A DNA stretch of 50,628 bases from positions 1 through 50,628 of the forward strand of contig MELF01000006.1 in the NCBI GenBank assembly GCA_001767525.1. The letters run 5' to 3'. This DNA is from Acidobacteria bacterium RIFCSPLOWO2_12_FULL_68_19 (GTDB lineage: Bacteria; Acidobacteriota; Vicinamibacteria; Vicinamibacterales; UBA2999). This document shows, in pieces, positions 2,008 through 50,628 of the stretch (the stretch's first letter is position 1; every line of letters starts with the position of its first letter). Position numbers and translations under genes: made by a program. The notes beneath the pieces are model-generated. The model was given only the letters and a program-made list of their open reading frames with translations, made no database searches and was not told where the DNA came from.

Positions 2008-2412
2008 TCACGAACCCGAGCGGAGCTGTTCCCAGAAGCCGCGGGGGCTGAGGATCGGCACCGGCGACTGCTTCGCGACGGCAAGCAGATCCTGATCTCC
2101 TGCGATCAGCACGTCGGCGTGTCCCGCGACTGCCGATGCGACAATCCACTGGTCGTCCGAGTCTCGGATGGGGATCGACGACGGCGCTGCCGGTTTCGGG
2201 ACCACGACTTGGGCTCGCAGGAGCGCGACGATTTCGGTCACGGTACTCGCCGGCAGCTTCATGCGTCCTTCGAGCACCGCGCGGAGCTCGGTCAGGACTA
2301 CGTCTCCCGTGATCAACTCGTGGTCGGCGAGCACGGTCCGGACCAGGTCCGCGCACAAGCCGCGGGTCGCAAACGCCGCCACCAGAACATTGGTGTCCAG
2401 GAAGACCCTCAC
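2008..2412 (-). CDS. PIN-domain ribonuclease toxin (VapC-like)
   Basis: Toxin half of a type II TA pair, probably a Mg2+-dependent RNase neutralised by the preceding RHH protein. The 134 residues have the PIN fold signature: D6 in FLDTNVLVAAF, the central acidic residue in LTELRAVL, and the acidic cluster in RDSDDQWIVASA with a C-terminal ADVLIAGDQDLL. All catalytic acidic positions appear intact. The start ATG overlaps the stop of the antitoxin by 4 nt (2409-2412), implying translational coupling. Its 3' end abuts the truncated nuclease fragment on the other strand. Confidence 0.85.
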   Translation of the reverse strand: MRVFLDTNVLVAAFATRGLCADLVRTVLADHELITGDVVLTELRAVLEGRMKLPASTVTEIVALLRAQVVVPKPAAPSSIPIRDSDDQWIVASAVAGHADVLIAGDQDLLAVAKQSPVPILSPRGFWEQLRSGS

Positions 2413-2627
2413 GAGATCTCGCGGAACACGTCTTCATCGGTCAAGAACCCACGCGCCTCGGCAAAGGGCAAGGCCCGTCGCCGCAGGTCCTCGAATCGCC
2501 GCAGCGACACTTCGCGGCGCACCGCCTGGCGCACGATGTCGCTGCGGCTCTGGCCGGTGCGCTTGCAGAGCCGGTCGAGCATGCGCTCCAGGTCCTTGTC
2601 CAGCCGGATCGTCAGGGTGCTCTTCAC
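2409..2627 (-). CDS. Ribbon-helix-helix (CopG-type) antitoxin
   Basis: A 72-residue DNA-binding antitoxin. The N-terminus KSTLTIRLDKDLERMLDRLCKR is followed by TGQSRSDIVRQAV, the beta-strand/helix-turn-helix layout of MetJ/Arc/CopG repressors. The acidic C-terminus (LTDEDVFREIS) is the likely toxin-binding tail. Translation starts at GTG 2627, which lies inside a 21-bp perfect palindrome (2626-2646). No Shine-Dalgarno sequence is visible, and a -10-like TACACT lies about 8 nt upstream of the GTG on the coding strand, so the mRNA may be leaderless. Autorepression through the palindrome is inferred. Confidence 0.8.
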   Translation of the reverse strand: MKSTLTIRLDKDLERMLDRLCKRTGQSRSDIVRQAVRREVSLRRFEDLRRRALPFAEARGFLTDEDVFREIS

Positions 2628-2646
2628 GTGTTACAGTGTAACACGT
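2626..2646. promoter_or_regulatory. Palindromic operator of the PIN/RHH TA pair
   Basis: Perfect inverted repeat with 10-bp arms ACGTGTTACA and TGTAACACGT around a central G. It overlaps the GTG start codon and contains the -10-like TACACT read on the minus strand. RHH antitoxins typically bind such sites, so this is probably the autoregulatory operator. Confidence 0.7.
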
Positions 2647-2672
2647 CTGCGTGTGTCCCACGCCAGGCCGGC

Positions 2673-2740
2673 GGCGCGCTGGAGCCGTCGCGCCCGCGGT
2701 CGGCAGCACTCGTCACCCCGGCGCGCGGCTCATTCGGCAC
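2673..2740 (+). other. Degenerate integron attC site
   Basis: Contains GAGCCG-T-CGCGCC on the left arm and GGCGCG-CGGCTC on the right arm, a stem with one extrahelical T, as in attC sites. A 16-nt stretch (2680-2695) and an 18-nt stretch (2720-2737) are identical to the left and right arms of the better preserved attC at 43968-44062. The R'' core is lost and the R' core reads CACGGGGCC instead of something like ACGTTGGGCC, so the site is decayed. It lies between the TA pair and the transporter gene. Confidence 0.6.
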
Positions 2741-2745
2741 GGGGC

Positions 2746-4236
2746 CTACCAGAGCCCCAGCACCCGCCACCACAGCGAACCGATTCCCATCCAGATCGCG
2801 ATATTGACGACGCTGACGATGAGCCCGGTCCGCCACCAGGCGCCGAGCGAGACGTGCCCGCCGCCGAAGAGGATCGGCGCCGCCGCGGTCCCGTAGTGCG
2901 TGAGGCTGGCGAAGAGGCTGCTCGCGAAGGCGAGGACGAGGGCGGCGAAGACGGGAGGCGTCCCGAGCCCGAGCGCGACGGCGAGAAACGGCGCGTACAT
3001 CGCACTGATGTGCGCCGTCATGCTCGCGAAGAAGTAGTGCGTGTAGAAATAGACGAGCACCATCCCGGCAAAGCCCGGCAGCCAGCCGACGCCGCCGGCG
3101 AGCGGCTGCACCTGGGCGGTGAACCACGCGATGAGCCCCAGCTCGCCGAGATGGCTCGCCATCATCACCAGCGTGGCGAACCAGACGAACGTGTTCCACG
3201 CCTCCCGATCCCCGGCCACCGCATCCCACCCGAGCACGCCGGTGACGAGCAGCGCCGCCACCGCCATGAGCGCCGCCGCCGTCGGATCGAGGCCAATCGA
3301 CGAACCGGCGATCCAGGCGGCCAGCAGCAGCACCGACACCGTCGCCATCACCCGCTCGCTCCGCGTCATCGGACCGAGCCGTGCGAGCGCGGCCCGCGCC
3401 GCCTCGGGCGCATCGGCCTGCATCGCCGCGCCGCGCGCCGTCAGCATGTAGATGACCGGCGGCACGACGAGGAGGCTGATGACGCCCGGCACCGCCGCCG
3501 CCGCGGCCCAGCCGGTCCAGGTCAGCGTAATGCCCTGGCTCGAGGCGAGCTGCACGACGAGCGGGTTCGCCACCATCGCGGTGACGAACATGGCGCTCGT
3601 AATGACGGTCGCGTTGTAGGCGGCCAGCGTGAGAAACGCCCGCGTCCGCCGTGCGTCGGCGGACGCTCCGCGCACGACGGTGCCCGCCAGCGACTGCAGA
3701 ATCGGAAAGACGACCCCGCCCGCCCGCGCCGTGTTGGAGGGAATCAACGGCGCCAGCACGAGGTCGGCGGCGGCGAAGCTGTAGCCGAGGCCGAGCGTGC
3801 TGCGGCCGAACAGCGCGACGAGGAGGTAGGCGATGCGCTCGCCCAGCCCGGTGCGGATGAAGCCGGAGGCGATGAAGAACGCGGTCATCACCAGCCAGAC
3901 GGGGCCGCTCGTGAAGCCGCTGAGCGCCTCGTCGAGCCCGAGCGTGCTCGTGGCGAGCGTCGCCGCGATGCCGACAAACGCCACGGCGCCGATGGGGAGC
4001 GGTTTGGCGATGATGCCGACGATCGTGGCGACGAAGATGGCCAGCAGGCGCCACGCCCGCGGATCGACCGCGCCCGGCCGCGGCAGGAGCCAGATCGCCA
4101 CACCGGTGCACGCGACGAGCAACAGGGGGACTGGACGAACGGAGGGCCGAGCGGCCGGGTGGTGGCTGGTGGGCGGTGGCTGATGGTTCAGAACCAAGGA
4201 GCTATGAACCACTCCCGACCACCGGCCACCGGCCAT
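2746..4236 (-). CDS. DASS/SLC13-family anion (dicarboxylate) transporter
   Basis: Inner-membrane transporter of the divalent anion:sodium symporter family (CitT/TtdT/SoDiT1 branch), likely moving C4-dicarboxylates, citrate or 2-oxoglutarate. About 11-13 hydrophobic segments are seen, starting at VPLLLVACTGVAIWLL. The inverted-repeat substrate motifs are present as LIPSNTARAGGVVFP (SNT-type, first half) and SLTHYGTAAAPILFGGG (second half). The N-terminal ~33 residues before the first membrane segment (HQPPPTSHHP region) look like translated intergenic DNA, so the true start may be an internal GTG or TTG. The neighbouring fumarase supports a dicarboxylate substrate, but specificity cannot be read from the sequence. 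Confidence 0.85.
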   Translation of the reverse strand: MAGGRWSGVVHSSLVLNHQPPPTSHHPAARPSVRPVPLLLVACTGVAIWLLPRPGAVDPRAWRLLAIFVATIVGIIAKPLPIGAVAFVGIAATLATSTLGLDEALSGFTSGPVWLVMTAFFIASGFIRTGLGERIAYLLVALFGRSTLGLGYSFAAADLVLAPLIPSNTARAGGVVFPILQSLAGTVVRGASADARRTRAFLTLAAYNATVITSAMFVTAMVANPLVVQLASSQGITLTWTGWAAAAAVPGVISLLVVPPVIYMLTARGAAMQADAPEAARAALARLGPMTRSERVMATVSVLLLAAWIAGSSIGLDPTAAALMAVAALLVTGVLGWDAVAGDREAWNTFVWFATLVMMASHLGELGLIAWFTAQVQPLAGGVGWLPGFAGMVLVYFYTHYFFASMTAHISAMYAPFLAVALGLGTPPVFAALVLAFASSLFASLTHYGTAAAPILFGGGHVSLGAWWRTGLIVSVVNIAIWMGIGSLWWRVLGLW

Positions 4237-17944: not shown

Positions 17945-20900
17945 ATGTACGATGCCTTAGTGAGGTCATCGCGGGCCAGAGAGGAGCTGCTCAGCATCGA
18001 ATCGCTCGAAGAGCACGCGCGCCGCCTCGCCGCGCTGCTCTCGATCGCGCCGCGCCAGTCTGGCGGCGGACGCGGCCACCTGCGCCAACTCAAGCAGCAC
18101 ATGCGCGCCCTGCGCAGCGTCTACACCGCGCTGGCGGAGGACGCCCGGCAGGAATCGATGACGCCGGCTGCCGAGTGGCTCCTCGACAACTTCCATATCA
18201 TCTCGTCCGCCGCGCGAGACATCCATCACGATCTTCCGCCGTCGTTCTTCCGCCGGTTGCCGCGCGTCGCCGCCGACGAGTTCGCCGGACTCCCCCGCAT
18301 CTACGCGCTGGCGCTGGAGCTGATCGGGTCGAGCGCCGGACGGCTCGACGCGCCGCGCCTGCAACGGTTCATCAGCGCGTTCCAATCGGTCACGCCGCTA
18401 ACAATGGGCGAGCTGTGGGCGTGGCCGAGCGCGCTGAAGCTCGCGCTGCTGGACCACCTGCGCGAGCGCGGCGACGTGCTCGCGGTCAACCGTCTGCACC
18501 GGCTCGCCGCCGACCGGCTCGCGACCTTCATCGAGGCCGGACCGGCCGACGGCGGCGCGTGGCCGGCGCATCCCCACCATGCCTTCGTCACGCGCCTGCT
18601 GCAGCGATCACGCGCCCTCGGCGCCATCGCGTCCGGTCTGCATGTCCAGCTGGAGACGATGCTCGCCGCGCGGGGCCAGACGATCGAGGACGCGATTCGA
18701 GCCGAGGGGCAGCATCAGGCCACTGAACAGGCTGGCATGGCCAATCTTATTGGCAGCCTCCGGCTGATCTCGACCTTCGACTGGAGCGAGTTCTTCGAGA
18801 GCGTCAGCCTCGTCGAGCAGGTACTCCAGCGCGACCCGGCCGGCGTCTACGGTCAGATGGACTTCCGCAGCCGCGACCGGTATCGGCACGCCGTCGAGGA
18901 GCTGGCGCCGCCGACCGGCGAAGGCCAGCTGCTGCTCGCGCTCAAGAGCGTGGAGCGCACACGCCAGATCCATGTGCGGACGCCCGAGGCGCGGGCGGCG
19001 CACGTCGGCTATCACCTGATCGGCCCCGGACGGCGGCTGTTCGAGCGCAGCGTCGCGTGGCAGCCGAATCTTCAGCAACGTGTGCGGCGCGTCTTCTTCG
19101 CGTGGGCCACGCCCGGGTACCTCGGCACAATCGCCCTCGGCACGGCGCTTCTCGTCGGCATCGCTGTCGTCTACGCCTGGCTGCATAGCTGGCGCGGTGC
19201 AGCGCTGGTCGCCGTCGCGCTGCTGGCCGCGATTCCGGCGAGCGAGATCGTCATCCAGCTGCTACAGCGGATGATCAGCTACCTGATTCCGCCGCGGCGA
19301 CTCCCGCGGATCGAGTTCGACGCCGTCCCTGCGTCGGCGCGGACGATGGTGATCGTCCCGACGCTGCTCGACAGCGTGGCGCGGGTCGAGGGCCTGATCG
19401 CGCACCTCGAGGTGCAGGCGCTCGGCAACATCGATCCCCACATCCACTTCGCCCTGCTCAGCGATTTCCCGGACGCGGCCAGCGAGACGTTGCCGGGCGA
19501 CGCGGCGATCCTGGCGGCCGCACGCTCGGGAATCGCCGCGCTCAACGCCAAGTACGCGGACGGCGCCGCCGATCGGTTCTTCCTGTTCCACCGGTTGCGT
19601 CAGTGGAACGATCGCGAAGGGCTCTGGATGGGATGGGAGCGCAAGCGCGGGAAGATCGAGGAGTTCAACCGCCTGCTGCGCAGCGCCACCGACACGAGCT
19701 TCGCCGTCTGCGTCGGCGACCTGTCGATCCTGCCGCAGGTCAGGTACTGCATCACCCTCGACAGTGATACGCGGCTGCCGAGAGGTGTGGGGCGCGAGCT
19801 GATCGGGATCATCTGCCACCCCCTGAATCGCCCGACGTTCGACCCCCAGGTCGGCCGCATCACTGAAGGCTACGGGATCCTGCAGCCTCGCATCAGCGTC
19901 ACTTTCATGAGCGCCGCCGGATCGCTGTTCGCGCGCCTCTACTCGGGGCACACCGGCGTCGATCCGTACACGACGGCGGTCTCCGACATCTATCAGGACC
20001 TCTTCAACGAGGGCATCTTCACCGGCAAGGGGGTGTACGACGTCGAGGCGTTCACCGCGGCGCTCGAGGGCTCGGTGCCGGAGAACGCCCTGCTCTCGCA
20101 CGACCTCTTTGAAGGCCTGCACGCGCGAGTCGCGCTTGTGTCCGACGTCGAGCTAGTTGACGAGTATCCGTCAAGCGTGCTGTCGCACGCGCGCCGGCAG
20201 CACCGCTGGATCCGGGGCGACTGGCAGATCCTCTTCTGGCTGTTCCCGTTCGTGCCCGGACCGCGCGGCCTCAGGCGGAACCGGCTGCCGATCATCGGGC
20301 GCTGGAAGATCCTGGACAACCTGCGGCGCAGCCTCGTGGCACCCACGCTGCTGGCGCTGCTCGTCGCGGGGTGGACGGTGCTGCCCGGTCCGCGGTGGTT
20401 TTGGACGCTCGCGGTGCTCGGCGTGGCCGCGTCGCAGCTCCTGCCCGTGCTGGCGCGCCTCGTCGTTGGCCCGCGGCGGGCGCAGTCGATTCCTGTGTTC
20501 CTGGCGAACGTGAGGCGGGATGCGGGGACGGCGCTGGCGCAGGTGACGCTCACTCTCACTTTCCTCGCGTTTCACGCCTTCGACACGGTGCATGCGATCG
20601 GCGTGACGCTCGTGCGCCTCACGGTCACTAGGCGCCGCCTGCTGGAATGGGAGACGGCGGCGACCACGGCAGCCCGGGCTGCCGGGCTGGTCGGTCAGCG
20701 GCGCCTGCGGCGCTTCGTGGCCGAGATGGTCTCCAGCCCTATCATCGCCGCCGTTGTCTTTGCGGCGATCGTCTTGAGAACGCCCGAGGCCTTGCCGGCC
20801 GCGGCGCCGTTCCTGCTCCTCTGGGCGTTCGCGCCCGCGGTCGCCTACTGGCTCAGCCTGCCGGTCGGCGCCCGCGTGCGGCCGCTGAGCGATCGGGAGC

Positions 20901-23900
20901 GCACGGTGCTGCGGCGGACGGCCCGCAGGACCTGGCGCTACTTCGAGACGTTCGTGACCGAGGCGGACGCGTGGCTGGTGCCCGACAACTACCAGGAGGA
21001 TGGCGACGCGCCGAAGCTCGCGCGCCGCACCTCACCGACCAACATCGGGATGGGCCTGCTGTCTACGCTGGCCGCCCACGACCTCGGTTACATCTCCACC
21101 GAGGCGCTCTGCCGCCGCCTCGATGCGACGCTGCGAACGCTCGAGAGCCTGGAGCGGTACAAGGGGCACTTCCTGAACTGGTACGACACGGCGACGCTGG
21201 CCCCGCTGCACCCGCGGTACGTCTCGACGGTGGACAGCGGCAACCTCGCCGGCGCGTTAATGGCCCTCGCGCAGGGAGTGCTCGAGCTCGAACGCCGTCC
21301 GCAGACGGTCGCGCAGCGGCTTGCTGGCGTCGCCGACGCCGCGGACCTGCTCGCCGAAGCCTCCGCGACGGTCACGGCCGGCGGCCTCGATCGGCAGACG
21401 CTCGTTGACGTCAATCGCCTGGCGCGCGCCATCGTCCGGGCAACGCGCAGCGAACGGCCCGAGCCGGAGATCCGTGCGTCGGTCGAGACGCTCGGCCTCG
21501 AGCTCGCCGCAGTTGGCGTGAGACTCGGCGATCCCGACGGCCCCGCGTCCGGCGAGGACCTCGCCCACTGGTATCGCGCGGTCCTTGACGCGATCCCGCG
21601 GGCGACGGCCGACGCGCCGCCACCGGCGGTGCCACTGGCGGCTTTCGCGGCCCGGATGTCGGCGCTTGCGGACGCGATGCGGTTCGACTTCCTGTACGAC
21701 CGCCGGCGCCGGATCTTCTCCATCGGCTACCGCCTCGCCGACGCCGAGGGGCCGGGGCGGCCGGACGCGTCGTTCTACGACCTGCTCGCCTCCGAAGCGC
21801 GCCTCGCCAGCTTTGTCGCGATCGCCAAGGGCGACGTCCCGCAGCACCACTGGTTCCACCTCGGGCGCCTCGTTACCAACATGGACGGCCGCGCCACGCT
21901 GATGTCGTGGGGCGGCACGATGTTCGAGTACCTGATGCCGCAGCTGCTGATGCGGACCTTCCCCGGCACGCTGCTGGATCAGAGCTGTCGCGCGAGCGTG
22001 CGGCGCCAGATCGAGTACGGCCGGCAGCGCCACGTGCCGTGGGGCATCTCGGAGTCGGCGTATGCCTTCACCGATCGCGAGGGCAACTATCAGTACCGTG
22101 CGTTCGGCGTGCCCGGCCTGGGCCTCAAGCGCGGGTTGTCCACCGACCTGGTGATCGCCCCCTACGCCACCGCGCTGGCGAGCCTCGTGACGCCGTCGGC
22201 CGCGGCGGACAATCTGGAACGGCTGGCGGAGGTGGGCCTGGAGGGGAGATTCGGCTTCTACGAGGCGCTCGATTACAGTCCGCGCCGGCGCGACGTGGAC
22301 GCAGATGCCGCGGCGGTGCCGGCCGTGGTGCGCGCCTACTTCGCGCACCACCAGGGGATGTCGCTCGTCGCGCTGGCCAACGTGGTCTTTCACGACGTGT
22401 TCGTCTTCCGCTTCCATGCGGATCCGCGCGTGCAGGCGACGGAGCTGCTACTGCAGGAGCGCGTCCCCCGCGAGGCGATCCTGTCGGAGCCGCGTCCGGC
22501 GGAGAGCGAGATGGCGCCCCCCACGCTGCCGGTCTACGCGACGCGCCGCTTCCGCACGCCGCACTCGACGAGCGTGCACACGCACTTTCTCTCGAACGGA
22601 CGGTACACGGCCGCGGTCACCAATGCCGGTGGCGGCTTCAGCGTGTGGCGCGACACGGCGGTGACGCGGCGCCGCGACGATCGCACCTCCGACGGCGGCG
22701 CCCACTATGTCTACCTGCGCGATCCTTGGTCGGGCCGCGTGTGGGCGGCTACTTACCAGCCGGTCTGCGCGGAGCCGGACCGGTTCGACGTGACGTTCGA
22801 CCTCGACAAGATCACGTTCCGTCGCCGCGACGCCGACATCGAGACGCAGCTCGAGATCACGGTCTCGTCGGAGGACGATGTCGAGGTGCGCCGGCTGACG
22901 ATCGTCAACCGCGGCGCGCAGACCCGCGAGATCGAGGTGACCAGCTACGCGGAGATCGTGCTGGGACGCCCCGAGGACGACCTGGCGCACCCGGCGTTCG
23001 GCAAGCTGTTCATCGAGACGGAGTTCGATCCGCAGAGCGCGGGTCTGCTCTTCCATCGCCGCCCGCGCGGCACCGACGAGTCGCCGATCGTGGGCTTCCA
23101 TGTGCTCGGCGTGGACGGCCCGCGGCTGGGCGGCGCCGTGGAATGGGAAACCGACCGCGCCCGCTTCGTCGGTCGCAGCCGGTCGCCGGCGAATGCGATC
23201 GCTCTCGACGGCCGCGCGCTGTCGGGCACGACCGGCGCGGTGCTCGACCCGATCGGCGCGCTGCGCGAGCGCGTCCGCCTAGCGGCCGGCGCGGTCGTGC
23301 GCGTGAGCTTCGCCACCGGCGTGGCGCCGGATCGCGCGGCCGCGCTCGCGCTCGCGCGCAAGTACCGGGACGGTAGCGCCGCCACGCGCGCGTTCTCGAT
23401 GGCGTTCACGCACGTCCACATCACGCTGCAGAACCTAGGACTCAGCGATGAACACGCGATCCTCTTCGATCGGCTGGCGTCGCGTGTCTTCGGCACCGAT
23501 CCCTCGTGCCTCAGCCCGGCAGCGCTGGCCGGCAACACGCTCGCGCAGCAGAATCTCTGGGGTCAGGGCATTTCCGGCGACCTGCCGATCGTGCTGCTGC
23601 GCGTCGCCGATGTGTCGTCGCTCCCGTTGGTGCGGCAGGTGCTCAACGCGCAGGAGTACTGGCGCGTCAAGGGCCTGCGCGCCGACGTCGTCATCCTGAA
23701 CGAGCATCCAGTGGACTACCTCGACGAGATGCAGGCGCTGCTGTCGCGGCTGGTGCAGGAGTCGCCGTGGGGCGGCTGGTTCGGGAAGACCGGCGGCGTC
23801 TTCCTGGTGCGCACCGACGGCATGTCCGAGGCCGAGCGCCTGCTGCTCTCGGCAGTGGCGCAGGCGGTGCTGGTGGGCGATCTCGGCGACCTCGTATCAC

Positions 23901-26461
23901 AGCTGGAACGGCCGGCATCGTGGATATACGACGAGCACGACGTCCCGCGGACCGCCGCGCTGAGCCCGCCACAGCCGGGCGCCGCGCCCGTTGCTGTTCC
24001 GGCCCTCGTGATGGAGAACGGCCTCGGTGGGTTCACGCGCGACGGCCGCGAGTACGTCGTCGTGCTGGAGGGCGAGCGCGAAACGCCGCTCCCGTGGTCC
24101 AACGTCCTGGCGAATCCGGCCTTCGGCACGATCGTCAGCAGCTCCGGGTCCGCATTTTCCTGGGCCGGCAACAGTCGCGAGAACCGGCTGACACCGTTTG
24201 CCAACGACCCGCTCGTCGATCCCACCGCGGAAGCGCTGTATCTCCGGGACGACCACTCCGGCGCGGTGTGGGGCGCAACACCGGGGCCGCTCCCGCGGAG
24301 GCCTGACGGCGGCCGCTGGGTGATCCGTCATGCCGCCGGCGTCACGCGCTACGAGCACGCGATCGACGGGATGCATCACGAGTTCGCCGTATTCGTGGCC
24401 CCGGAGGATCCCGTCAAGCTGGCGGTCGTGACGCTGACCAACACGGGGACGAGGCCGCGGCACATCAGCGTCTTCGGCTACGTCGAGTGGTGCCTCGGTC
24501 CGCCGCGCGCCGGCGAACGGCGCTTCGTCGTCACCGAGCTCGACGACGCGACGGGAGCGCTGCTGGCGCGCAACGCATACAACGCGGAGTGGAGCGAGAG
24601 CGTCGCGTTCTGGCGCGCCACCGAGGCGCCGCGCTCGTACACGGCCGATCGCACCGAGTTCGTGGGCCGCAACCGCAGCCTGAGCGCGCCGGCCGCACTC
24701 TTCCGCGAGCGCCTCGCGAAACGGACCGGCGCCGGCCTCGATTCGTGCGGAGCGCTGCACGTGGCCGTGGCGCTGGCACCCGGCGAATCACATCGTGTCG
24801 CGTTCGTTCTCGGCCACGGGCCCAATCGCGCCAGTGCCGTGGCACTCGCGGCCCGCTATTCGTCGCTGGCGCAGGCAGAGGCGACGCTTGCCGCGGTCGA
24901 GCGGAGGTGGGACGAGACGCTGGGAGCTGTCCAGGTCCGCACGCCGGACGACTCCTTCGATCTGATCGTCAACCGGTGGCTGCTCTATCAGACGTTGTGC
25001 TGCCGCATCTGGGCTCGCAGCGGACCGTATCAGCCGAGCGGTGCGTTCGGCTTCCGCGATCAGCTCCAGGACGTGCTGGCACTGATGTACTCGCGCCCGG
25101 AGCTGTGCCGCGCGCACCTGGTGCACGCGGCGTCGCGGCAGTTCGTCGAGGGCGACGTGCAGCACTGGTGGCATCCGCGGAGCGGACGCGGCACGCGGAC
25201 GCGCTGCTCCGACGATCTGCTCTGGCTGCCCTACGTCCTCGCCAGCTACATCTCGCAGACCGGCGACGAATCAGTGCTGGACGAAGAGGCCCCCTTCCTC
25301 GACGCGCCCGCGCTCGAACCGGATCAGTCCGAGACCTATCTGCTGCCGCGCGTGACGTCGGAGACGGCATCGCTCTTCGAGCACGCGGTCCGGGCCATCG
25401 CCCGGGCGATGAAATACGGCGCGCACGGCCTGCCGCTGATCGGTTCAGGCGACTGGAACGATGGCATGAATCGCGTGGGGCACGCGGGCCGGGGCGAAAG
25501 CGTGTGGCTCGGCTGGTTCCTGGTCACGGTGCTCAACGACTTCGCTCCCATCTGCGCACGCCGCGGGCGCAGCGATCTCGCCCAGGCCTATCGCGACGAG
25601 GCGCGGTGGCTGGCCGGCATGCTCGAACTGGCATGGGACGGCGACTGGTACCGCCGCGCGTACTTCGACGACGGGACGCCGCTCGGGTCGGTGCAGAACG
25701 AGGAATGCAAGCTCGATTCGCTGACACAGTCGTGGGCGGTGCTGTCGGCGGCGGCACAGGCGCGTCGCGCCGAGCGCGCGATGAACGCCGTGCGCGCGCA
25801 CCTCGTGCGGCGCGACGCTCAGGTCGTGCTGCTGCTCACGCCGCCGTTCGATCGCATGGCGCACGACCCGGGCTACATCAAGGGGTACCTGCCTGGCGTG
25901 CGCGAGAACGGCGGCCAGTACACGCACGCCGCGGTCTGGACGGTGATCGCGCTGGCGCGTCTCGGCATGGGGGACGAAGCGATGGAGCTGTTCCACATGC
26001 TCAACCCGATTAATCACATGCGGACGCTGGAAGATGCGGAGCGCTACAAGGTAGAGCCGTTTGCCATCGCGGCGGACGTCTACGCTCACCCGATGCACGT
26101 CGGGCGCGGCGGCTGGACGTGGTACACCGGGTCGGCGGGCTGGATGTACCAGGCGGCCATCCAGGCGCTGTTGGGGTTGCGTCGCCAGGGCGCGACGATC
26201 AGCGTCGAGCCCTGCATTCCCGCCGTGTGGCCGGGGTACTCGATCGACTGGACGCTGGGCACGACGCGGTATCGCTTCACCGTCACCAATCCCGAGCACC
26301 GGTCGCAGGGGATTGCGTCGGCCCACCTCGATGGCGTCGCCGTCAACCCGCGCGCGATTCCGCTGCGTGAGGATGGCGACGAGCACGAGGTGACGATCGT
26401 GCTCGGCGTCGCACGTGCCACCGCCCTGCCGCTCACAGCGGCCCGTTCCGCCGATGCGTGA
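17945..26461 (+). CDS. ndvB: Cyclic beta-1,2-glucan synthase (NdvB/ChvB-type)
   Basis: A 2838-residue inner-membrane enzyme that builds and cyclises beta-1,2-glucan from UDP-glucose; length matches the family. In order: cytoplasmic N-terminal region (~1-385); membrane pair (~388-440); GT84 glycosyltransferase with [10 protein letters not shown] near residue 606 and the Q/RxxRW motif in [11 protein letters not shown] near 749; further membrane segments (~793-975); glycoamylase-like domain (~1310-1460, [31 protein letters not shown]); two GH94 substrate domains starting near 1550 ([15 protein letters not shown]) and 2022; and the GH94 catalytic [13 protein letters not shown] with D2506. The product is normally exported for osmotic adaptation or host interaction; no ndvA/chvA exporter is visible. 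ATG 17945 gives the expected N-terminus but lacks a clear Shine-Dalgarno sequence. Confidence 0.93.
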
Positions 26462-42799: not shown

Positions 42800-43054
42800 G
42801 GCGACCAGGCAGGAGTAATCCTCCGGGGCCACCCCAACCGTGTGCGAACCGGCATTGAATCCGCGCTCTATGACGCCAGCGCCAATTCACGGGTCGAGCA
42901 CGCCGCCGTCCGTCCAACCCCCTGCACCAACTGCGGTTGACCGGGCGGACGATGCCAGTAGAATGGCTCCACGTGAGGGCATCATAGGGTGGGCGCGGAA
43001 GCCTGAGTGCAGGCGGTAGCCGGGAAATGGCGCCGTCCACTCATACGACGTTAG
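42800..43054 (+). repeat. ~255 bp direct repeat, copy 1, ending in an attC-like GTTAGGC
   Basis: Starts GGCGACCAGGCAGGAGTA and runs to CGACGTTAG. Apart from scattered substitutions and an internal length change it matches copy 2 (49639-49916). The identity ends exactly inside GTTAG, after which the two sites differ (GGCTGCC here, CCGGACG there), as expected at an attC recombination point. GTCCAAC (42912-42918) fits the R'' consensus and GTTAGGC (43050-43056) the R' consensus, 145 bp apart, but a standard two-box stem is not obvious. No ORF in it looks real. Upstream DNA (42437-42799) holds no gene I can support. Confidence 0.7.
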
Positions 43055-43099
43055 GCTGCCACCCTATCGAGCAAATTCGTACCTGAGACAAGCGTCTTC

Positions 43100-43939
43100 A
43101 TGTTGATCTACACGCCAAAGCGGCTGACAACCGTTCTTGCCATCCTTGGGATCCTCACGCTCGCGTACGTTCTCCCGAATGTGATCAGTTGGCAGCCAGG
43201 CGGCCGGGCGAACTTTTGGGTTCTCGTTCTTACGGCGGGTGCGGCGCTGCTATACGCGTGGCTCACGTACCTTCTTCTTCGGAGTGACCAAAGACCGGTG
43301 GTTGTCGTTGCCTACGAGGATGCTCGAACCGTAGTTCGTAATTTTGGGCGCGGGGCAGCCCTCAATGTGTCCGTGACGAACGATAAGGGTCGGACAATAG
43401 ACCGGGTGGGCAATCTTGCGCCCAGTGTGGAGCGGAGAATGCGGGTTCAGCTCGACTGGACTATCGACGAAGCGCGATACATTTTTTGCCAAGACGTATT
43501 CGGTCGATGGTACGGAACAAAAAGCTTAGGCCAAAGTTTGAGTGCTTCAGCCGAGTTACCCATAGCGAACCTTTTCCTGGGCCGAGTTTTCAATCCGCCG
43601 CCAGAGGCTCGGCAGGCTGCGATGGTTCGGTCAGCCGTTGAGTACTGGGTTCAGCTAAACCGTTCGTGGGATCCCCGGAATTGGCTTCGTCGACTGCTTT
43701 GGTTTGTTAAGAAGATACGGGCAGAGCGACGAATTGTTCGACTGATCAAGTCGGCCATAGTCGATGGTCGTCTCAAGACATCCTTCACTGCCGAAGAACT
43801 GTCAAAGGCGACAGAGCTCGAGAGAATTGTCGCCGATCGGTTCTTGCCAAATCATGCAGTAGGCAATTTAGACAACGAGCGGCCTTATTTTGTCGCGGAA
43901 TCGGGAGGACGGTTTAGGTTGAAGCGTCGTGGAGAATAG
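43100..43939 (+). CDS. Cassette-borne membrane protein of unknown function
   Basis: A 279-residue protein. Two membrane helices are visible at about residues 10-28 (TVLAILGILTLAYVLPNVI) and 40-62 (FWVLVLTAGAALLYAWLTYLLL). The rest is soluble: RPVVVVAYEDARTVVRNFGRGAALNVSV with an immunoglobulin-like feel, RYIFCQDVFGRWYGTKSL, and a charged C-terminus. No family recognised. GC content and codon use are clearly lower than in core genes. It follows a GTTAGGC core by 44 nt and is followed 28 bp later by a full attC, the layout of an integron cassette. Confidence 0.8.
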   Translation: MLIYTPKRLTTVLAILGILTLAYVLPNVISWQPGGRANFWVLVLTAGAALLYAWLTYLLLRSDQRPVVVVAYEDARTVVRNFGRGAALNVSVTNDKGRTIDRVGNLAPSVERRMRVQLDWTIDEARYIFCQDVFGRWYGTKSLGQSLSASAELPIANLFLGRVFNPPPEARQAAMVRSAVEYWVQLNRSWDPRNWLRRLLWFVKKIRAERRIVRLIKSAIVDGRLKTSFTAEELSKATELERIVADRFLPNHAVGNLDNERPYFVAESGGRFRLKRRGE

Positions 43940-43967
43940 ACCCACCTTCCCGACTGACGTTTCGGCA

Positions 43968-44062
43968 GCCTAACAACAGCCGAATGGAGCCGTCGCGCCC
44001 CGTGATCTGTGCAATCATTTGCACATTTGCAGCGGGCGCGCGGCTCATTCGGAACGTTGGCG
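43968..44062 (+). other. Integron attC site A
   Basis: R'' core GCCTAAC at 43968-43974 and R' core GTTGGCG at 44056-44062. Between them the arms CCGAAT-G-GAGCCG-T-CGCGCCC (43980-44000) and GGGCGCG-CGGCTC-ATTCGG (44034-44052) pair completely, with G43986 and T43993 unpaired: the extrahelical bases that IntI uses on the folded bottom strand. A central TGTGCAA-TTGCACA hairpin closes the structure. Length 95 bp, within the range known for attC. The R' core deviates from GTTRRRY by two bases. Confidence 0.85.
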
Positions 44063-44135
44063 CACCTGACGCGCGATGAGGGCGACAGACAAGTGCGATG
44101 GTACGAAAGCCCCGGCCAATGACATGGGAAGCCTC

Positions 44136-47100
44136 ATGAGCGTAGAAAGAAATCGGCTTCTCTCCCTTATCGAATTCTCTCAGCAGTCCGCGCGGCTGCG
44201 GGGCAAGCCAGCCGCTACCGTTGCCGCACACGGTGGCTTCGCTCTCTACGAGCACGAGATCCAAGGACTGCCGGGCATCCGCATTAACGTCAACGGCCCC
44301 GAGAGCGAGGACGAGATTTGGCTTGCCCTTGAGCGGCTGCACGAGATGAGGCCGCCGGATATTGCCAGCGCGGTACTGCGGCCCTGGGTGCAGATGACGC
44401 AGGGGCCAACGGAAGAGCCGCGGCTGCGCGAGGCCATGGACGGCGCAAGCCTGATTGCTGAGGGGACGCATTCTTCATCGGCAAGTCCACCGGAGCAAGG
44501 CAAACCCGTAATCGCCCCCGAGACGACGGTCATGCTCTCCGACTACGACAGGTGTGCCCTGGTCAAGGCGCAGTTCGCCACCTACCTCGACACGAAGTGG
44601 CGCCCCTGGGCCGAGGAAGAGAAACTCCGCCGCAAGACCATACGCCTTTACTCCCAGCTCTTCACGCTCAAGCAGCAGCTCGAGGGCGGCATTGTCGAAG
44701 CGCAACTCGAGCTCGTCTGGGGCGTGGGCCTCGGCATCTGGAACTCCAATGACACCACCGTGAGCTATCCGCTGGTAGGACGGCTGGCCGAAATGTCGCT
44801 CAACCCTGTGACGGCCGAAGTGGAAATCCGCCCTCGGGATGTCGATGCTCGCATCGAGGTCGACTGGTACGCATCCGTCGATAACCCTGGCGTTGCCGAC
44901 CTGGAGAAAGCGGCGAAGGAGTTCTTCGGGAAGGCTACGACGACCTTTTCTCCGTTCGACCGAGGCACCTTCGAGCCTTTGCTTCGCACGGCGGCTACCA
45001 ACCTCGACGCGAACGGCATCTACTGGCCAAACGAAGTGTCGGCTGACGACCGGACGCTGCCCAAGTCCGACGACAAGCTAAAAGTCACCGACACGTGGGT
45101 GCTCCTTGCGCGCCCGCGCACCAACAGTCTGTTTCTGCAGGACCTGGAAAAGCTGAAGAAACGAGCCGAAGAGGCCGAGTCCTACCCGCCCGCAGTGGCT
45201 GCGGTCGTGACCGACCCAGACACGTCCAACCCGGTCGTCGAACTGCCAACTTTCCGTGGTGTCTCCGCCTCATACCATTCGCAGGGCAGCACAAGCGGCA
45301 AGAAGGCGCGCGACATCTACTTCCCGAAGCCTTTCAACGACGAGCAGTTCCGCATCGTGCAGCTCTTGGATATTTCCGATGGCGTCGTCGTGCAGGGTCC
45401 GCCTGGTACGGGCAAGACGCACACCATCGCCAACGTCATCTGCCACTACCTTGCCGAAGGTAAACGGGTGCTCGTGACTTCGATGAAGGACCCAGCCCTC
45501 AGGGAGGTGCAAGAGAAGCTGCCGGATGAAATCCGTCCGCTCGCTATCTCGCTGCTGACGAGCGAACAGGAGGGAATGAAGCAGTTCGAACACGCCATCC
45601 ACAAGATTGCCTCCGAGGTACAGGGCCTCGACCGCGGCAGTACGGCAAGAGCCATCAACCATCTTGAGGAATCCATTGATGCCCTCCACGGCAAGCTTGC
45701 CAGCATTGACCGCAAGATTGGCGAATGGGCGAAACGGAACCTCGCCAAGGTCACGTTGGAAACCGAGGAGATCGACCCTCAAGACGCGGCGCGCGAGGTG
45801 GTCGGGAACGTCGACCAGTTCGAGTGGATTCCCGACACGCTTGGAATCACTCCCGAATTCGCCCCGCAGTTCTTGGACGCGGATGTTGTGCGGCTACGGG
45901 AGGCAAGGCGTGCGCTAAGCCAAGACGTCGACTACCTCGATGCGTCGCTGCCGCAACTCGTGGAGTTTCCTGACTCCAAGGCACTGCTCGAAGTCCACCA
46001 GGACCTGTCCCAGTTCGAAAAGCTGAAACAGGGCGTGGAAAACGGCGACGTTCCGGCGCTCGCCGATTCGACACAGGAGACGCTCGCTCGCGCTCAGCAA
46101 GTCCTCACGGACATCGAGGCGCTCCAGCGATTGCGCGACGAGGTAGTGCAGGCGCATCGTTACTGGACGATCGCCATGCGCGAACGTCTGCGGCGCGGCG
46201 GCAACGACAACCTGGTGCCGATTCTGGAAGCCCTCGGCGCCGAGCTTGAGCAGGCTGTCGACCGGCGCAAGGCGTTTCTTGAGCGGCCGGTTACCACTCC
46301 CGCAGGCATCGAGCTTGATACCGAGCTCGCGGAGGCTGTGAGCAATCTTGCCGAGGGCAAGAGCCCCTTTGGTCTGAAAGGACTGTTCGGCAGGTCCGCG
46401 CAGAAGAAGCAGCTGGACAGCATTCGCGTTCTCGGCAATCCCCCTGCCAACGCCGAGAGTTGGAAGCATGTCGCCGAGCATCTGGCGTTGTTGAAATGCC
46501 TGCGCGAACTGGCCTTGCGCTGGAACGCTCTTGCCCCCGAGCTTCAACTCGAAGCCGTACCGGGGGACAAGCCGGAAGGCGGCCTGGACGCCGCCCAGGG
46601 CTACGCCCTTTACCTCAAGGTGAAGAGCGTAGTGAAGGCGGAAGGCGAACTCTGCGCCGCAGCTTCTCTCGTTTTCCCCAACTCGGCTCATGTCCGCGAG
46701 CTGGCGGATAACACGCAGCGACTCGCAGAGATGGAGAAGGCGCTGCGGCACCACCTCACCAAGAACCGACTCGCCAACGTTTGGGCTCACAAGGAGCGCT
46801 TTCAGAAGGTACTGGAAGGCCGCACGGGCCGCGTCATAGAGGACATTCGCCGGTTTCTCGCCGAGATGCTGGGCAACCCTGAGATTGAAGACGCCCGGAT
46901 GCAGGCTGAGTGGACGGCGCTGATGGCGGAGCTATCTCGCGTGCTGGGCCTGGGCACGCATCTCGCCGCCCTGCGCGAGGGTTGCGGCAAAGCTGAGGCC
47001 TCCGGGGCGCCTAAGTACGCGGCGTCGCTCAAACGACCGCTTGAGGGCACGGTGGATGGTCTTCTACCGGACAACTGGCGCAGCGCTTGGCGCCTGAGAC

Positions 47101-49445
47101 GCCTGGCCACCTACCTCGAATCGATTGATGCACAAGAAGTGCTGAAGAGGTTGGCGAAGGATCGCCACGAAGTGGAGAGCGATTTGTCGCGCGCGTATCG
47201 CGACATCGTAGTGAAGCGGACGTGGCTGAAACTCGCGGAGAACGCTTCGCCCAGCATTCGGGCCGCTCTGCAGGCCTATCTCAACGCCATTCAGAAAATC
47301 GGCAAGGGCACTGGCAAGCGCGCGGTGCGCTATCGGCAGGATGCGCGTATGGCAGCATCGCAGGCGAACCCTGCAGTGCCGTGCTGGATCATGCCGCACT
47401 ACCGCGTGTCCGAATCGCTGCCTGCAGAACTGGGCTGCTTCCACCTCGTCGTCATTGACGAAGCGTCGCAATCGGACCTAACGGCATTGCCTTCCTTGTT
47501 ACGGGCGATGAAAGTGCTCATCGTTGGCGACGACAAGCAAGTCTCCCCCGAAGGCGTCGGTCTCGAGGAGGAGAAGATTCGAAGCCTCATGAGTCGCTTC
47601 CTCGGCAATCAGGTGGAAACCTATCGCCCGCAGATGTCGCCGGAGCGCTCCATCTATGACCTGTTCAAAGTAGTCTTTGCCAAGAGCGCGGTGATGCTGA
47701 AGGAGCATTTCCGCTGTGTCGGTCCGATCATCGAGTACTCCAAGCGCGAGTTCTACAATCACGAGCTCCGGCCACTGCGCATGCCCAAAGCCTCCGAGCG
47801 GCTCGACCCGCCCCTCATCGACGTGGTGGTGGAAGACGGCTACCGCAGGGGCGACGTCAATTTGCCCGAGGCGCGATTCATCGTCGATGAAATCAAGGCC
47901 ATTGTGTCTGACCCAAACATGGGCGGGCGCTCCATCGGGGTCGTCTCGCTGCTTGCCGACAAGCAGGCTCTGTTGATATGGGAGCGGCTGACCGACGAAC
48001 TCGGGCCGGAAGTAATGCAGCGCCATCGCATCGCTTGTGGCGATGCACGCACGTTCCAGGGCAAAGAGCGGGACATCATGTTTCTCTCGATGGTGTCGGC
48101 GCCCAACGAGGTCGGCGCGCCGCTCTCCCGCGATACTTTCGCCCAGCGTTTCAACGTGGCGGCTTCGCGCGCGAGGGACCGGATGTACTTGGTGCGCTCG
48201 GTGGCACTGGAGCATCTGAGCGAGGCGGACCGGTTGCGGCGCAGTCTCATCGCACACTTCGCGACACCCTTCGCCCAGGATGAGCTGCGCGTGGAGGATC
48301 TGCGCACACTTTGCGAGTCCCCTTTCGAACGCGACATGTACGACGAACTCACGCAGCGTGGCTACTGGATCACCCCACAAGTGCGGGTCGGCCAATACCG
48401 CATTGATATGGTGGTTGAGGGACACAACGACGCGCGGCTGGCGGTCGAATGCGACGGCGACAAGTACCACGGCGCGGACAAGTGGGCCGACGACATGCAG
48501 CGCCAGCGCGTCCTGGAGCGCGCCGGTTGGGTGTTCTGGCGGTGTTTCGCCTCCGCTTTCATCCGTCGGCGCAAGGACATGCTGGACGACCTCGTGAGGA
48601 CGTTGGCCGAGCGCGGTATCGAACCGATTGGGGCTGAAGGCGCGCCTAGAAGTGTGCATACCGAGCACCGCATCGTGCCCTTTGTCACAGAGCCGGCGGT
48701 TGGGCAGGGCACCGTGATGCCTGTTGAAATTGTCGAGAGCGCTCAGGCATCGATTCCTGAGGCACCGCCGGCACGAACCAGTTCAGCAAGAGGAGACGCG
48801 CTTCCAGTAGAAGCTCGGCTGCATCCGTCGACTGGCGACGGGAATCTCTTTGGCCGTGCCCAATTGATCGTTTCTTCGGTCAACTCGCGAGACGCCAATT
48901 TGCCATTCAGCGATTATGTGGAGTATGCGGGCCTTCCTGGGAATGACCCTCGCAGCGTCAACGCGCATAGAGTTTCGGAAGGCATTGTCCAGATAGTCGA
49001 GGTCGAAGGCCCAGTGGTTGCGAAGCGAGCCTACGACATTTACCTGAGGGGCTGCGGCATCAAGCGAATGGGCCATGAGCTCAAGAGCACTATGAACAAG
49101 GCGCTTGCGGACGCCATTCGAGAACAGCGTCTTGTTTCTGAGAATGAGGTGACTGAAAGGGGCCTGCTATTCTCCATTGTCAGAGTGAACGGAAGCCCAC
49201 CGATCAAGTTGCGAACCAGGGGGCCGCGATCATTCGAGGAGATTCCACCGAGCGAGCTGCAAGTTGTCGCCAGGTATCTGTTGGAGCGGCACAGGTTTCC
49301 ATCTGGTAGTGACGAGCATCTGCGTGCGGTCTTGGAGTGCTTTGATCTCAAACGGCTGACCACGCAGGTCGGCACGACGTTGCTGGAAGTCCTGGAGAGG
49401 AGTTTCCCGTACGTGGACGAGTTCCTGAGTGGTATGCGCAAATAG
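44136..49445 (+). CDS. SF1 helicase fused to a PD-(D/E)XK nuclease (candidate defence protein)
   Basis: A protein of about 1769 residues from ATG 44136 (GGAAG 5 nt upstream); ATG 44076 in the same frame would add 20. N-terminal ~390 residues are unrecognised. Helicase core: Walker A GPPGTGKT at 421-428, then RVLVTSMKDPALREVQEKLP; a long coiled insertion follows (~520-1060); Walker B VVIDEASQSDL with D1108/E1109; LIVGDDKQVSPEG; motif VI FNVAASRARDRMYLVRSV. This is the UPF1-like AAA_11/AAA_12 branch. The C-terminal nuclease (~1390-1480) has SPFERDMYDEL, YRIDMVV and VECDGDKYHG, a Vsr/DUF559-like PD-(D/E)XK fold. The last ~170 residues resemble DUF3320 (EGPVVAKRAYDIYLRGCG). It sits between two attC sites. 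Similar helicase-nucleases act in anti-phage systems; that role here is inferred. Confidence 0.85.
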   Translation: MSVERNRLLSLIEFSQQSARLRGKPAATVAAHGGFALYEHEIQGLPGIRINVNGPESEDEIWLALERLHEMRPPDIASAVLRPWVQMTQGPTEEPRLREAMDGASLIAEGTHSSSASPPEQGKPVIAPETTVMLSDYDRCALVKAQFATYLDTKWRPWAEEEKLRRKTIRLYSQLFTLKQQLEGGIVEAQLELVWGVGLGIWNSNDTTVSYPLVGRLAEMSLNPVTAEVEIRPRDVDARIEVDWYASVDNPGVADLEKAAKEFFGKATTTFSPFDRGTFEPLLRTAATNLDANGIYWPNEVSADDRTLPKSDDKLKVTDTWVLLARPRTNSLFLQDLEKLKKRAEEAESYPPAVAAVVTDPDTSNPVVELPTFRGVSASYHSQGSTSGKKARDIYFPKPFNDEQFRIVQLLDISDGVVVQGPPGTGKTHTIANVICHYLAEGKRVLVTSMKDPALREVQEKLPDEIRPLAISLLTSEQEGMKQFEHAIHKIASEVQGLDRGSTARAINHLEESIDALHGKLASIDRKIGEWAKRNLAKVTLETEEIDPQDAAREVVGNVDQFEWIPDTLGITPEFAPQFLDADVVRLREARRALSQDVDYLDASLPQLVEFPDSKALLEVHQDLSQFEKLKQGVENGDVPALADSTQETLARAQQVLTDIEALQRLRDEVVQAHRYWTIAMRERLRRGGNDNLVPILEALGAELEQAVDRRKAFLERPVTTPAGIELDTELAEAVSNLAEGKSPFGLKGLFGRSAQKKQLDSIRVLGNPPANAESWKHVAEHLALLKCLRELALRWNALAPELQLEAVPGDKPEGGLDAAQGYALYLKVKSVVKAEGELCAAASLVFPNSAHVRELADNTQRLAEMEKALRHHLTKNRLANVWAHKERFQKVLEGRTGRVIEDIRRFLAEMLGNPEIEDARMQAEWTALMAELSRVLGLGTHLAALREGCGKAEASGAPKYAASLKRPLEGTVDGLLPDNWRSAWRLRRLATYLESIDAQEVLKRLAKDRHEVESDLSRAYRDIVVKRTWLKLAENASPSIRAALQAYLNAIQKIGKGTGKRAVRYRQDARMAASQANPAVPCWIMPHYRVSESLPAELGCFHLVVIDEASQSDLTALPSLLRAMKVLIVGDDKQVSPEGVGLEEEKIRSLMSRFLGNQVETYRPQMSPERSIYDLFKVVFAKSAVMLKEHFRCVGPIIEYSKREFYNHELRPLRMPKASERLDPPLIDVVVEDGYRRGDVNLPEARFIVDEIKAIVSDPNMGGRSIGVVSLLADKQALLIWERLTDELGPEVMQRHRIACGDARTFQGKERDIMFLSMVSAPNEVGAPLSRDTFAQRFNVAASRARDRMYLVRSVALEHLSEADRLRRSLIAHFATPFAQDELRVEDLRTLCESPFERDMYDELTQRGYWITPQVRVGQYRIDMVVEGHNDARLAVECDGDKYHGADKWADDMQRQRVLERAGWVFWRCFASAFIRRRKDMLDDLVRTLAERGIEPIGAEGAPRSVHTEHRIVPFVTEPAVGQGTVMPVEIVESAQASIPEAPPARTSSARGDALPVEARLHPSTGDGNLFGRAQLIVSSVNSRDANLPFSDYVEYAGLPGNDPRSVNAHRVSEGIVQIVEVEGPVVAKRAYDIYLRGCGIKRMGHELKSTMNKALADAIREQRLVSENEVTERGLLFSIVRVNGSPPIKLRTRGPRSFEEIPPSELQVVARYLLERHRFPSGSDEHLRAVLECFDLKRLTTQVGTTLLEVLERSFPYVDEFLSGMRK

Positions 49446-49524
49446 GGTGTCGCGTGACTCCGCATGGTGCTGGAGCAGGCTGCGGTGCCCTCGCAGGAAT
49501 GGGCGGCCACATCAAGTGCGCGCC

Positions 49525-49582
49525 TCCCAACAGCATGCAGCTGACGGCGCTGCGCGCCGCAGCTGATGCTGGACGTCTAAGC
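49525..49582 (+). other. Integron attC site B (short form, core slightly decayed)
   Basis: R''-like TCCCAAC (49525-49531) overlaps the left arm CAGCAT-G-CAGCTG-A-CGGCGC (49531-49550). A TGC loop follows, then the right arm GCGCCG-CAGCTG-ATGCTG (49554-49571). All 18 arm positions pair, with G49537 and A49544 extrahelical. The 3' end reads GACGTCTAAGCC where GACGTTAAGCC or GACGTTAGGC is expected. Total length 58 bp, the classical 59-base-element size. It lies 80 bp after the helicase-nuclease stop. Confidence 0.75.
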
Positions 49583-49638: not shown

Positions 49639-49916
49639 GGCGACCAGGCAGGAGTAGTCCTCCGGGGCCCACCCCAACCGTGTGCGAACCGGTATTGGCG
49701 CCAGCGGCCTATCCAGGGAAATCCCCGCTCTATGACGCCAGCGCCAATTCACGGGTCGAGCACGCCGCCGTCCGTCCAACCCCCTGCACCAACTGGGGTT
49801 GACCGGGTGGACGATGCCAGTAGAATGGCCCCACGTGAGGGCATCGTAGGGTGGGCGCGGAAGCCTGAGTGCAGGCGGTAGCCGGGAAATGGCGCCGTCC
49901 ACTCATACGACGTTAG
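49639..49916 (+). repeat. ~278 bp direct repeat, copy 2, ending in an attC-like GTTAGCC
   Basis: Second copy of the 42800-43054 repeat, with an extra ~22-nt segment near 49697-49718. Ends at GTTAG, continuing into CCGGACGAAC and the ATG of the GIY-YIG gene 22 nt later. GTCCAAC (49774-49780) and GTTAGCC (49912-49918) are the candidate core boxes. Just before it, CGCCAAAGGGACTT (about 49590) and AAGTCCCTTGGCG (about 49630) form another hairpin with one unpaired A. I read this as an ORF-less duplicated cassette. Confidence 0.7.
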
Positions 49917-49937: not shown

Positions 49938-50552
49938 ATGGGCGAAACGCGATTGCGGTTGTCGCTGGGAACTCAGACGTTCGAGTTCATGGACACGCCG
50001 CTGGCGTTTGGCGCGTGTCACGTTACGGATCTGTTCGCCCGCAAGAACAACAAGACCGTCGGCGAAACCATCTGTCATCCGAAATACGTCCAGCTCGTGG
50101 GTCGCATTACGGCGGAGTATCAAGAGTCGATTCACGCGAAGCTGGGCCGGTTCCTCTACGAACTGAAGCAGCGGGGAGACCCGTTCTATCGTGAGTTTCT
50201 CAATGCTCATGGAGATGGCGAGTATTGTGAGTTCAAGCTCAAGGACCCAGGGGTCAAACGACTGAAGGGCCTGTACTGCTTCACTGTTGACGCCCGGCTC
50301 AAGTACATCGGCAAGAGCACCGACAGCTTTGCGAAAAGAATCGACCACGGGTACGGCACGATTCATCCGAAGAACTGCTACAGGGATGGCCAGAGCACAA
50401 ACTGCCATCTCAACGGGCTGATCGCGACCGCCTCCGGTGAAGTGCGATTACACGTACATCCGATGGTCGTCGACGATACCATCGAGCTCAGCGAAAGGGC
50501 GTTGATCTTCCAATATGATCCCGACTGGAACGTCCAGTTGCGGAGATACTGA
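49938..50552 (+). CDS. GIY-YIG-like nuclease, cassette-borne
   Basis: A 204-residue protein following GTTAGCC by 19 nt (CACTTAATTAAG-ATG). The N-terminal ~105 residues are unrecognised (TRLRLSLGTQTFEFMDTPLAFGACHVTDLF). From about residue 111 it has the GIY-YIG pattern: GLYCFTVDARLKYIGKS, then AKRIDHGYGTIH (Arg position), NCYRDGQSTNCHLNGLI, and a glutamate in SERALIFQYDP. Family members cut DNA; a role in defence or cassette mobility is possible but not shown. It ends 5 bp before an IS481-like terminus. Confidence 0.7.
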   Translation: MGETRLRLSLGTQTFEFMDTPLAFGACHVTDLFARKNNKTVGETICHPKYVQLVGRITAEYQESIHAKLGRFLYELKQRGDPFYREFLNAHGDGEYCEFKLKDPGVKRLKGLYCFTVDARLKYIGKSTDSFAKRIDHGYGTIHPKNCYRDGQSTNCHLNGLIATASGEVRLHVHPMVVDDTIELSERALIFQYDPDWNVQLRRY

Positions 50553-50556
50553 GCGG

Positions 50557-50628
50557 CCGGGGACATGAGTAACAGATTAGTCCGGGGACATGGGTAACAC
50601 TTGGTTGACTTACCACGCCGTGTGAGAG
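50557..50628 (+). mobile_element. IS481-like element terminus running off the window
   Basis: CCGGGGACATGAGTAACA (50557-50574) and CCGGGGACATGGGTAACA (50582-50599) are tandem, 25 bp apart, differing at one position. The same motif in weaker form borders the transposase remnant at 28395, where the element lies to its right. By analogy an IS481-like element starts here and continues beyond 50628. Confidence 0.5.

Follow-up and report, generated by a model that had tools for sequence, protein, structure and literature searches.

Anti-phage integron cassettes have been described (Darracq et al., 2025; Kieffer et al., 2025, both via PMC12409362), and the excerpts of PMC12409362 consulted describe integron defence genes as small and streamlined and larger multi-gene systems as missing. 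The excerpts consulted of a second source give median coding sequences of 575 bp for mobile and 362 bp for chromosomal integrons, and report excision assays with fragments of 60 to 3,060 bp, in which a consistent drop in excision occurred only at 1,500 bp or more when the site folds poorly (PMC5371416). In the part consulted of a survey, clusters of attC sites were defined by a distance of less than 4 kb between attC (PMC9668308). No cassette comparable in size to the one described below was named in the open-access literature searched. On the protein side, the excerpts consulted of PMC3710099 list fusions of the MTES_1575 nuclease to a HEPN domain and to a wHTH domain overlapping DUF3320.

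The window, meaning the whole stretch of DNA that was analysed, is one entire contig (C6, 50,628 bases); the genome totals 4.2 Mb over 52 contigs. The right end of the contig holds, from 5' to 3', a leader repeat, a first cassette, an attC site (attC A), a large helicase-nuclease reading frame, a second attC site (attC B), a second leader repeat, a 204-aa reading frame and the contig end:

42796-43054, + strand: first copy of the attI-like leader repeat; its GTTAG end marks where cassette 1 begins
42937-42964, + strand: promoter-like TTGACC-N16-TAGAAT within leader copy 1, directed toward the cassettes
43051-44056, + strand: cassette 1, 1,006 bp; its ORF at 43100-43939 encodes 279 aa
43968-44062, + strand: attC A, R'' GCCTAAC and R' GTTGGCG
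44057-49575, + strand: helicase-nuclease cassette, 5,519 bp from crossover to crossover, with an attC on either side
44136-49445, + strand: helicase-nuclease ORF from its likely start, 1769 aa; the longest reading begins at 44076
45333-45701, + strand: AAA_11 match, first SF1 motor part, Walker A GPPGTGKT at residues 441-448
45513-47450, + strand: helical insert between the motor motifs, region 480-1125, from AlphaFold2
47679-48194, + strand: AAA_12 match, second motor part, motifs IV to VI conserved
48324-48605, + strand: MTES_1575 Vsr-like nuclease domain, with D1444, E1458 and D1460
48957-49085, + strand: DUF3320-like stretch, under the Pfam cut-off
49522-49581, + strand: attC B, R'' GCCTCCC and R' GTCTAAG
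49639-49916, + strand: attI-like leader repeat copy 2, immediately 5' of the contig's last ORF
49938-50552, + strand: 204-aa ORF after leader copy 2, with a weak phage endonuclease family match

Cassette 1 opens with ten bases, TTAGGCTGCC, that are the reverse complement of GGCAGCCTAA, with which its own attC starts, and this by sequence is textbook cassette behavior; its 279-aa product has no significant family match. The 204-aa ORF matches phrog_1111, a phage endonuclease family, weakly (E=3.3e-7), and no attC was found between this frame and the contig end when the window was searched with the wider of the two models described below. At 50560-50600, at the contig end, a short stretch (GTCCGGGGACATG or similar) occurs twice and is perhaps the end of an insertion sequence. 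Elsewhere, the window holds a 2838-aa ORF on the + strand at 17945-26461. Searches of the window returned neither Rfam matches nor tRNA genes.

We searched for attC sites with two covariance models, both free of window sequence. The first (R1) was built from six attC that the genome carries on contigs other than this one, which were located by a hairpin scan near integrase genes and then aligned; the wider model (R2) comprises 22 attC, four of them from the related locus L021 introduced below. In the window, attC A (R1 E=1.2e-11, R2 E=7.5e-12) and attC B (R1 E=1e-5 at 30.7 bits, R2 E=1.2e-7) are the two top-scoring matches. They flank the helicase-nuclease unit, as the sequence-only reading had proposed, and lie in the same orientation. 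A partial match at 2680-2732 (R1 E=0.0029, R2 E=0.0015) comes next after them in the R2 list, and a match at 25167-25221 (R1 E=0.018) does not appear in the R2 list to E=5; apart from these four, the window gave no attC match at E<0.1. The predicted bottom-strand folds of attC A and attC B are more stable than those of 200 shuffled sequences (z=-5.6 and -5.0, respectively). The independent-model E values together with the fold score show that attC B is no chance palindrome, which the earlier reading had named as a danger to its proposal; the site is real, and its R boxes are not canonical.

The genome harbors three integron integrase genes above the TIGR02249 cut-off, on C46, C35 and C34, and none lies on the helicase-nuclease contig. 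Separate attC clusters occur on C23, C33, C34, C42 and C46, and partial integrases are present beyond C34, C35 and C46. Searched across the genome, R1 gave at least 33 matches to E=1; attC B is absent among those listed despite its 30.7 bits in the window, which marks the listing as incomplete.

The distance from attC A to attC B is 5.46 kb. The earlier reading had put the cassette at 5.3 kb, a figure that holds for the gene alone and that becomes 5,519 bp for the unit measured between crossovers. Within the clusters of the same genome, attC are spaced 323-1354 bp apart (median 773, 17 intervals), a figure that represents the usual spacing and no maximum, being taken from matches to E=0.5 plus one more in the clusters on C23, C33, C34, C42 and C46, and leaving aside the gaps between clusters at about 68.0-87.5 kb on C46 and about 24.8-33.6 kb on C42, lone matches on other contigs and two weak matches. 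The helicase-nuclease unit resembles the described anti-phage integron cassettes in placing a probable defence gene amid attC; in the excerpts of PMC12409362 consulted, those cassettes are small and streamlined, whereas this unit spans 5.5 kb and has a decayed-looking 3' attC. Defence-gene cassettes are already known; the size is what is unusual, and the protein family is unnamed in the libraries searched.

To place the unit in its family, we compared it with 82 related loci, namely the best 80 of 110 from genome contigs and two from viral contigs. Seven of the 82 lack an ORF of 1,200 aa and were left out of the alignment; they include L034 and L058, the closest relatives by nucleotide identity. 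In the nearest, L058 (93% nucleotide identity), 1.6 kb of other sequence breaks up the gene at about 2317-3920, and the locus diverges again in the C-terminal part after 4773. A quick tree built from 75 of these 76 rows groups the window with L021, L023, L025 and L033 in one clade (SH-aLRT 99); the alignment comprised 76 rows.

Within this clade, nucleotide homology between the window and both L021 (88% identity over 4.6 kb) and L033 (84% over 4.6 kb) starts at 44059, the third base of the cassette and three bases past G 44056, the final base of the upstream site. The stretch from this border to the start codon measures 79 nt in the window, 80 in L021, 85 in L033 and 82 in L025; in L025 the BLAST alignment begins only at 44105, and the length is still similar. 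Downstream of the gene, L021 has an attC (R1 E=6.3e-9) that begins 26 bases past the stop codon and is followed by four further attC. L033 likely has an attC upstream of the gene, which is a weak match (R2 E=0.31), the sole one in 275 kb, with a fold z of -4.8. At the upstream border of L021, a likeness to attC is visible only by eye (no R1 match, fold z=-0.1), and L023, in which the 5' flank is absent, has no attC 3' of the gene.

Across the 82 relatives, R1 placed an attC at the gene in L021 only, and R2 over the other 81 added L033, weakly; with R2, none was found at the gene outside the clade of the window. Of the 75 loci with a long ORF, 65 offer at least 300 bp of flank on either side. 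A simple hairpin scan of the 82 loci yielded candidates in five (L021, L029, L036, L040 and L052), of which the models support only L021; the scan missed L033, where R' is ATT. An R1 match in L054 (E=0.82) is at chance level and was discarded. The hosts of close relatives carry attC in six of the nine genomes searched.

The shared border at 44059, the 3' attC of L021 and the likely 5' attC of L033 lead us to regard the helicase-nuclease unit, as far as sequence can tell, as a cassette by descent whose border recurs across genomes. The claim of an extreme single-gene cassette holds in this respect, since the 5' border is found again in other genomes. Insertion of the gene between two attC by transposition or recombination, without its ever having been a cassette, would fit the many relatives without attC at the gene, the missing core triplets of attC B, the integrase-free contig and the occurrence of the 255-nt leader on both sides of the region. 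We consider it very improbable, because homology begins at the crossover in two other genomes, because in L021 the R'' GCGCCTAAC of an intact attC is complementary to that locus's own 5' end (TAGGCGC with GCGCCTA), and because L025 retains, after the stop codon, the same stretch up to a decayed R'', matching L021. The earlier reading had named homologues outside cassettes with the same flanks as evidence against it: most homologues do show no attC at the gene, but the close relatives whose flanks were read have flanks other than those of the window, so that the objection stands by half.

The four relatives in the clade, all metagenome bins, carry four different phylum labels as given in their records; the bin of L021 is labelled Actinobacteria and that of L033 Methylomirabilis. 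The remaining family also crosses phylum labels, and does so without attC, which suggests that transfer of the gene is independent of the cassette form.

Descent from a cassette is to be distinguished from present mobility, which the sequence-only reading had raised. Aligned to the attC of L021, attC B reads GCCTCCC in place of GCCTAAC in R'', and its R' is GTCTAAG; it thus has neither of the canonical core triplets, AAC in R'' and GTT in R'. The 5' GGCGC of the cassette pairs with GCGCC of its own R'', leaving the core unpaired. The GTT triplet is generally required for recombination. At the upstream border, L021 has GCT as its triplet; L033 and L025 both have ATT there, and neither retains an intact 3' site. 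As a result, none of the four copies compared (window, L021, L033, L025) has two intact borders, each having at least one border without GTT. With both core triplets of attC B gone and two intact borders in none of these copies, the unit is probably immobile now, and the earlier suggestion of mobility is not borne out. Could the unit still move, with the hairpin of attC B sufficing and GTC being tolerated? The hairpin is well preserved, and GTC recurs in one of the 22 attC in R2, which lies on C46 of this genome. In that set, however, R' starts with GTT in 21 of 22 and R'' ends with AAC in 18 of 22, and attC B has neither; we regard continued mobility as quite unlikely. The missing triplets are why we call the unit a cassette by descent and not a working cassette, a designation that is predicted from the borders. 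The 3' site may also have been replaced, given that attC B is similar to a different L021 attC at 33 of 36 bases.

The leader repeats (197-260 nt) occur twice in the window in tandem arrangement, and the leader ends exactly at the start of the first cassette. Copies 1 and 2 are 97% identical over 197 nt. Homologues were found in three of 161 other genomes of the order, the same three that were found among 58. An attC lies downstream of the GTTAG end (R2) in all three homologous loci with room for one (L017, L018 and L019, two of which come from one genome), whereas L016 ends with its contig. The leader itself contains no R1 or R2 match in the window, so it was rejected as an attC and an attI-like nature is preferred. 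The promoter-like sequence TTGACC-N16-TAGAAT matched once, against 0.5 expected by shuffling, and is no better than chance alone; TGAC and GTAGAATGGC are invariant in six aligned leader copies from four genomes, which would be compatible with a promoter directed at the cassettes. We read the leader repeat as a putative attI plus promoter. Against this reading counts a XerC-like tyrosine recombinase gene in L017 (1814-2833, - strand; 44 of 265 bits, below the integron-integrase cut-off), the only recombinase gene seen adjoining a leader, with an attC array following that leader. An attI-plus-promoter leader may be the platform of this order.

The gene is a single open reading frame, as had been proposed at about 1770 codons. 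Its longest reading (44076-49445, + strand) encodes 1789 aa; relatives align from an internal ATG at 44136 (residue 21), preceded by GGGAAG, which gives 1769 aa (residue numbers here count from the 44076 start). AAA_11 and AAA_12 score above their Pfam cut-offs and the SF1 motor motifs are present. The MTES_1575 nuclease scores 105.4 bits against a cut-off of 38.2, and DUF3320 falls just under its own (21.9 versus 25 bits), in line with the domain set that the earlier reading had listed. In an alignment of 76 proteins, the motor and nuclease motifs, including the acidic residues, are conserved. The protein is thus predicted to be a UPF1-like SF1 helicase that carries a long helical insert and is joined to a nuclease of the Vsr-like MTES_1575 type.

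The N-terminal region and the insert were modelled by AlphaFold2 with mean pLDDT of 85.2 and 86.0, respectively. The N-terminal residues 21-430 gave no Foldseek match at E<=0.001, a best VIA Z of 5.2 with a UPF1 entry at rank 28 (Z 3.2), and, as a profile against PDB sequences, no match up to E=1. The insert (480-1125) is almost wholly helical in the model and also lacked a Foldseek match at E<=0.001; its best VIA hits (Z up to 11.2) are to coiled-coil proteins, among them Lamassu, MukB and Smc, a likeness that for long helices can reflect common arrangement only. Its length stays near 646 residues in most full relatives, which is why we regard it as a fixed part of the protein, probably a coiled arm. 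Past the nuclease, close relatives that retain a C-terminal tail have about 277 residues, and most others fewer than 80.

Among described or cataloged systems, ProA (NF058533) aligns over residues 437-1760 of the protein (3.8e-73), but the score of 246.7 bits is far below the cut-off of 1500 and profile positions 1-666 of 1903 fall outside the best stretch. The best PADLOC match, and the top match for all six relatives tested, is PDC-S37 (3.4e-72, two stretches, the best being 887-1775); at only 242 bits, it concerns a PADLOC candidate without a curated cut-off or a described function. Hhe (NF042953) aligns with the second motor part and the nuclease, yet reaches 141.8 bits against an NCBIfam cut-off of 2000, and the N-terminal two thirds of Hhe lie outside the best stretches. 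The second motor part also aligns with MkoA and MkoC of Mokosh. Membership in ProA or Hhe was rejected on the curated cut-offs. In the open-access literature, we found neither the origin of the ProA name nor a paper under the name PDC-S37.

Because of the homology to ProA, Hhe and PDC-S37, we consider restriction of foreign DNA the most likely function predicted for the protein. Its main rival is an accessory role in DNA repair, or in DNA or RNA processing, which the UPF1/SMUBP-2-like motor would suit. The neighbors of relatives speak for this rival and against defence. Among the 91 nearest ORFs (of 154 listed) beside 26 relatives, 84 Pfam families were represented; among the best 25 inspected, most are metabolic or transport genes, and an amino-acid permease family leads with 5 of 91. 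Of 59 PADLOC families with at least one of the 91 ORFs, none among the best 25 inspected exceeds 4 of 91. Since the listed neighbor families show no defence clustering, we dropped the defence-island argument. Against a repair or processing role stand the patchy distribution of the gene (found at E<=1e-100 in 6 of 396 genomes from the phylum, its own included), the mixed phylum labels of close relatives, distant relatives on plasmids (44 records, all below 60% identity) and top family matches that are anti-phage proteins, even if far under the curated ProA and Hhe cut-offs. We therefore regard that role as rather unlikely and retain restriction of foreign DNA. The further proposal of a defence system spread by integrons survives only in part: the cassette form was seen in one small clade, with attC at the gene limited among the 82 relatives to L021 and, weakly, L033, and the defence role draws on homology to ProA, Hhe and PDC-S37, with genomic context lending no support.

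Taken as a whole, the best explanation, which we hold as reasonably probable, is that a family gene acquired an attC, became a 5.5 kb cassette that is now fixed, and encodes a defence enzyme working alone. The family of UPF1-like helicases with a Vsr-like nuclease is widespread and for the most part free of attC; one of its genes would have gained an attC, probably once, giving rise to the integron cassette; the attC on both sides and the same 5' border elsewhere bear this out. To judge from the order of the parts, the cassette would have entered an array of its own genome at the second place behind the attI-like leader, from which it may be transcribed. Later loss of the core triplets of the 3' attC would have left the unit probably fixed. 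From its domains and distant homology, the protein most likely acts alone, its split SF1 motor traveling on DNA, the long helical insert forming an arm that senses or clamps, and the nuclease at the C-terminus cutting, so that phages or other mobile DNA would be restricted.

A broader possibility, which we put forward more tentatively, is that integrons mobilize cassettes that hold one gene yet exceed 5 kb, large one-protein defence enzymes among them, and that these have been overlooked because surveys join attC only at less than 4 kb and because such cassettes would persist mainly once one border has decayed, which makes them resemble ordinary chromosomal genes. At 5.46 kb, attC A and attC B would stay unjoined under the criterion given in the excerpt of PMC9668308, a blind spot for surveys that use it. 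A cassette of 5.5 kb that encodes an enzyme of 1769 residues argues against a hard size limit and suggests that integrons can carry genes much larger than expected. The damaged borders further suggest that very large cassettes may persist once they can no longer be excised.
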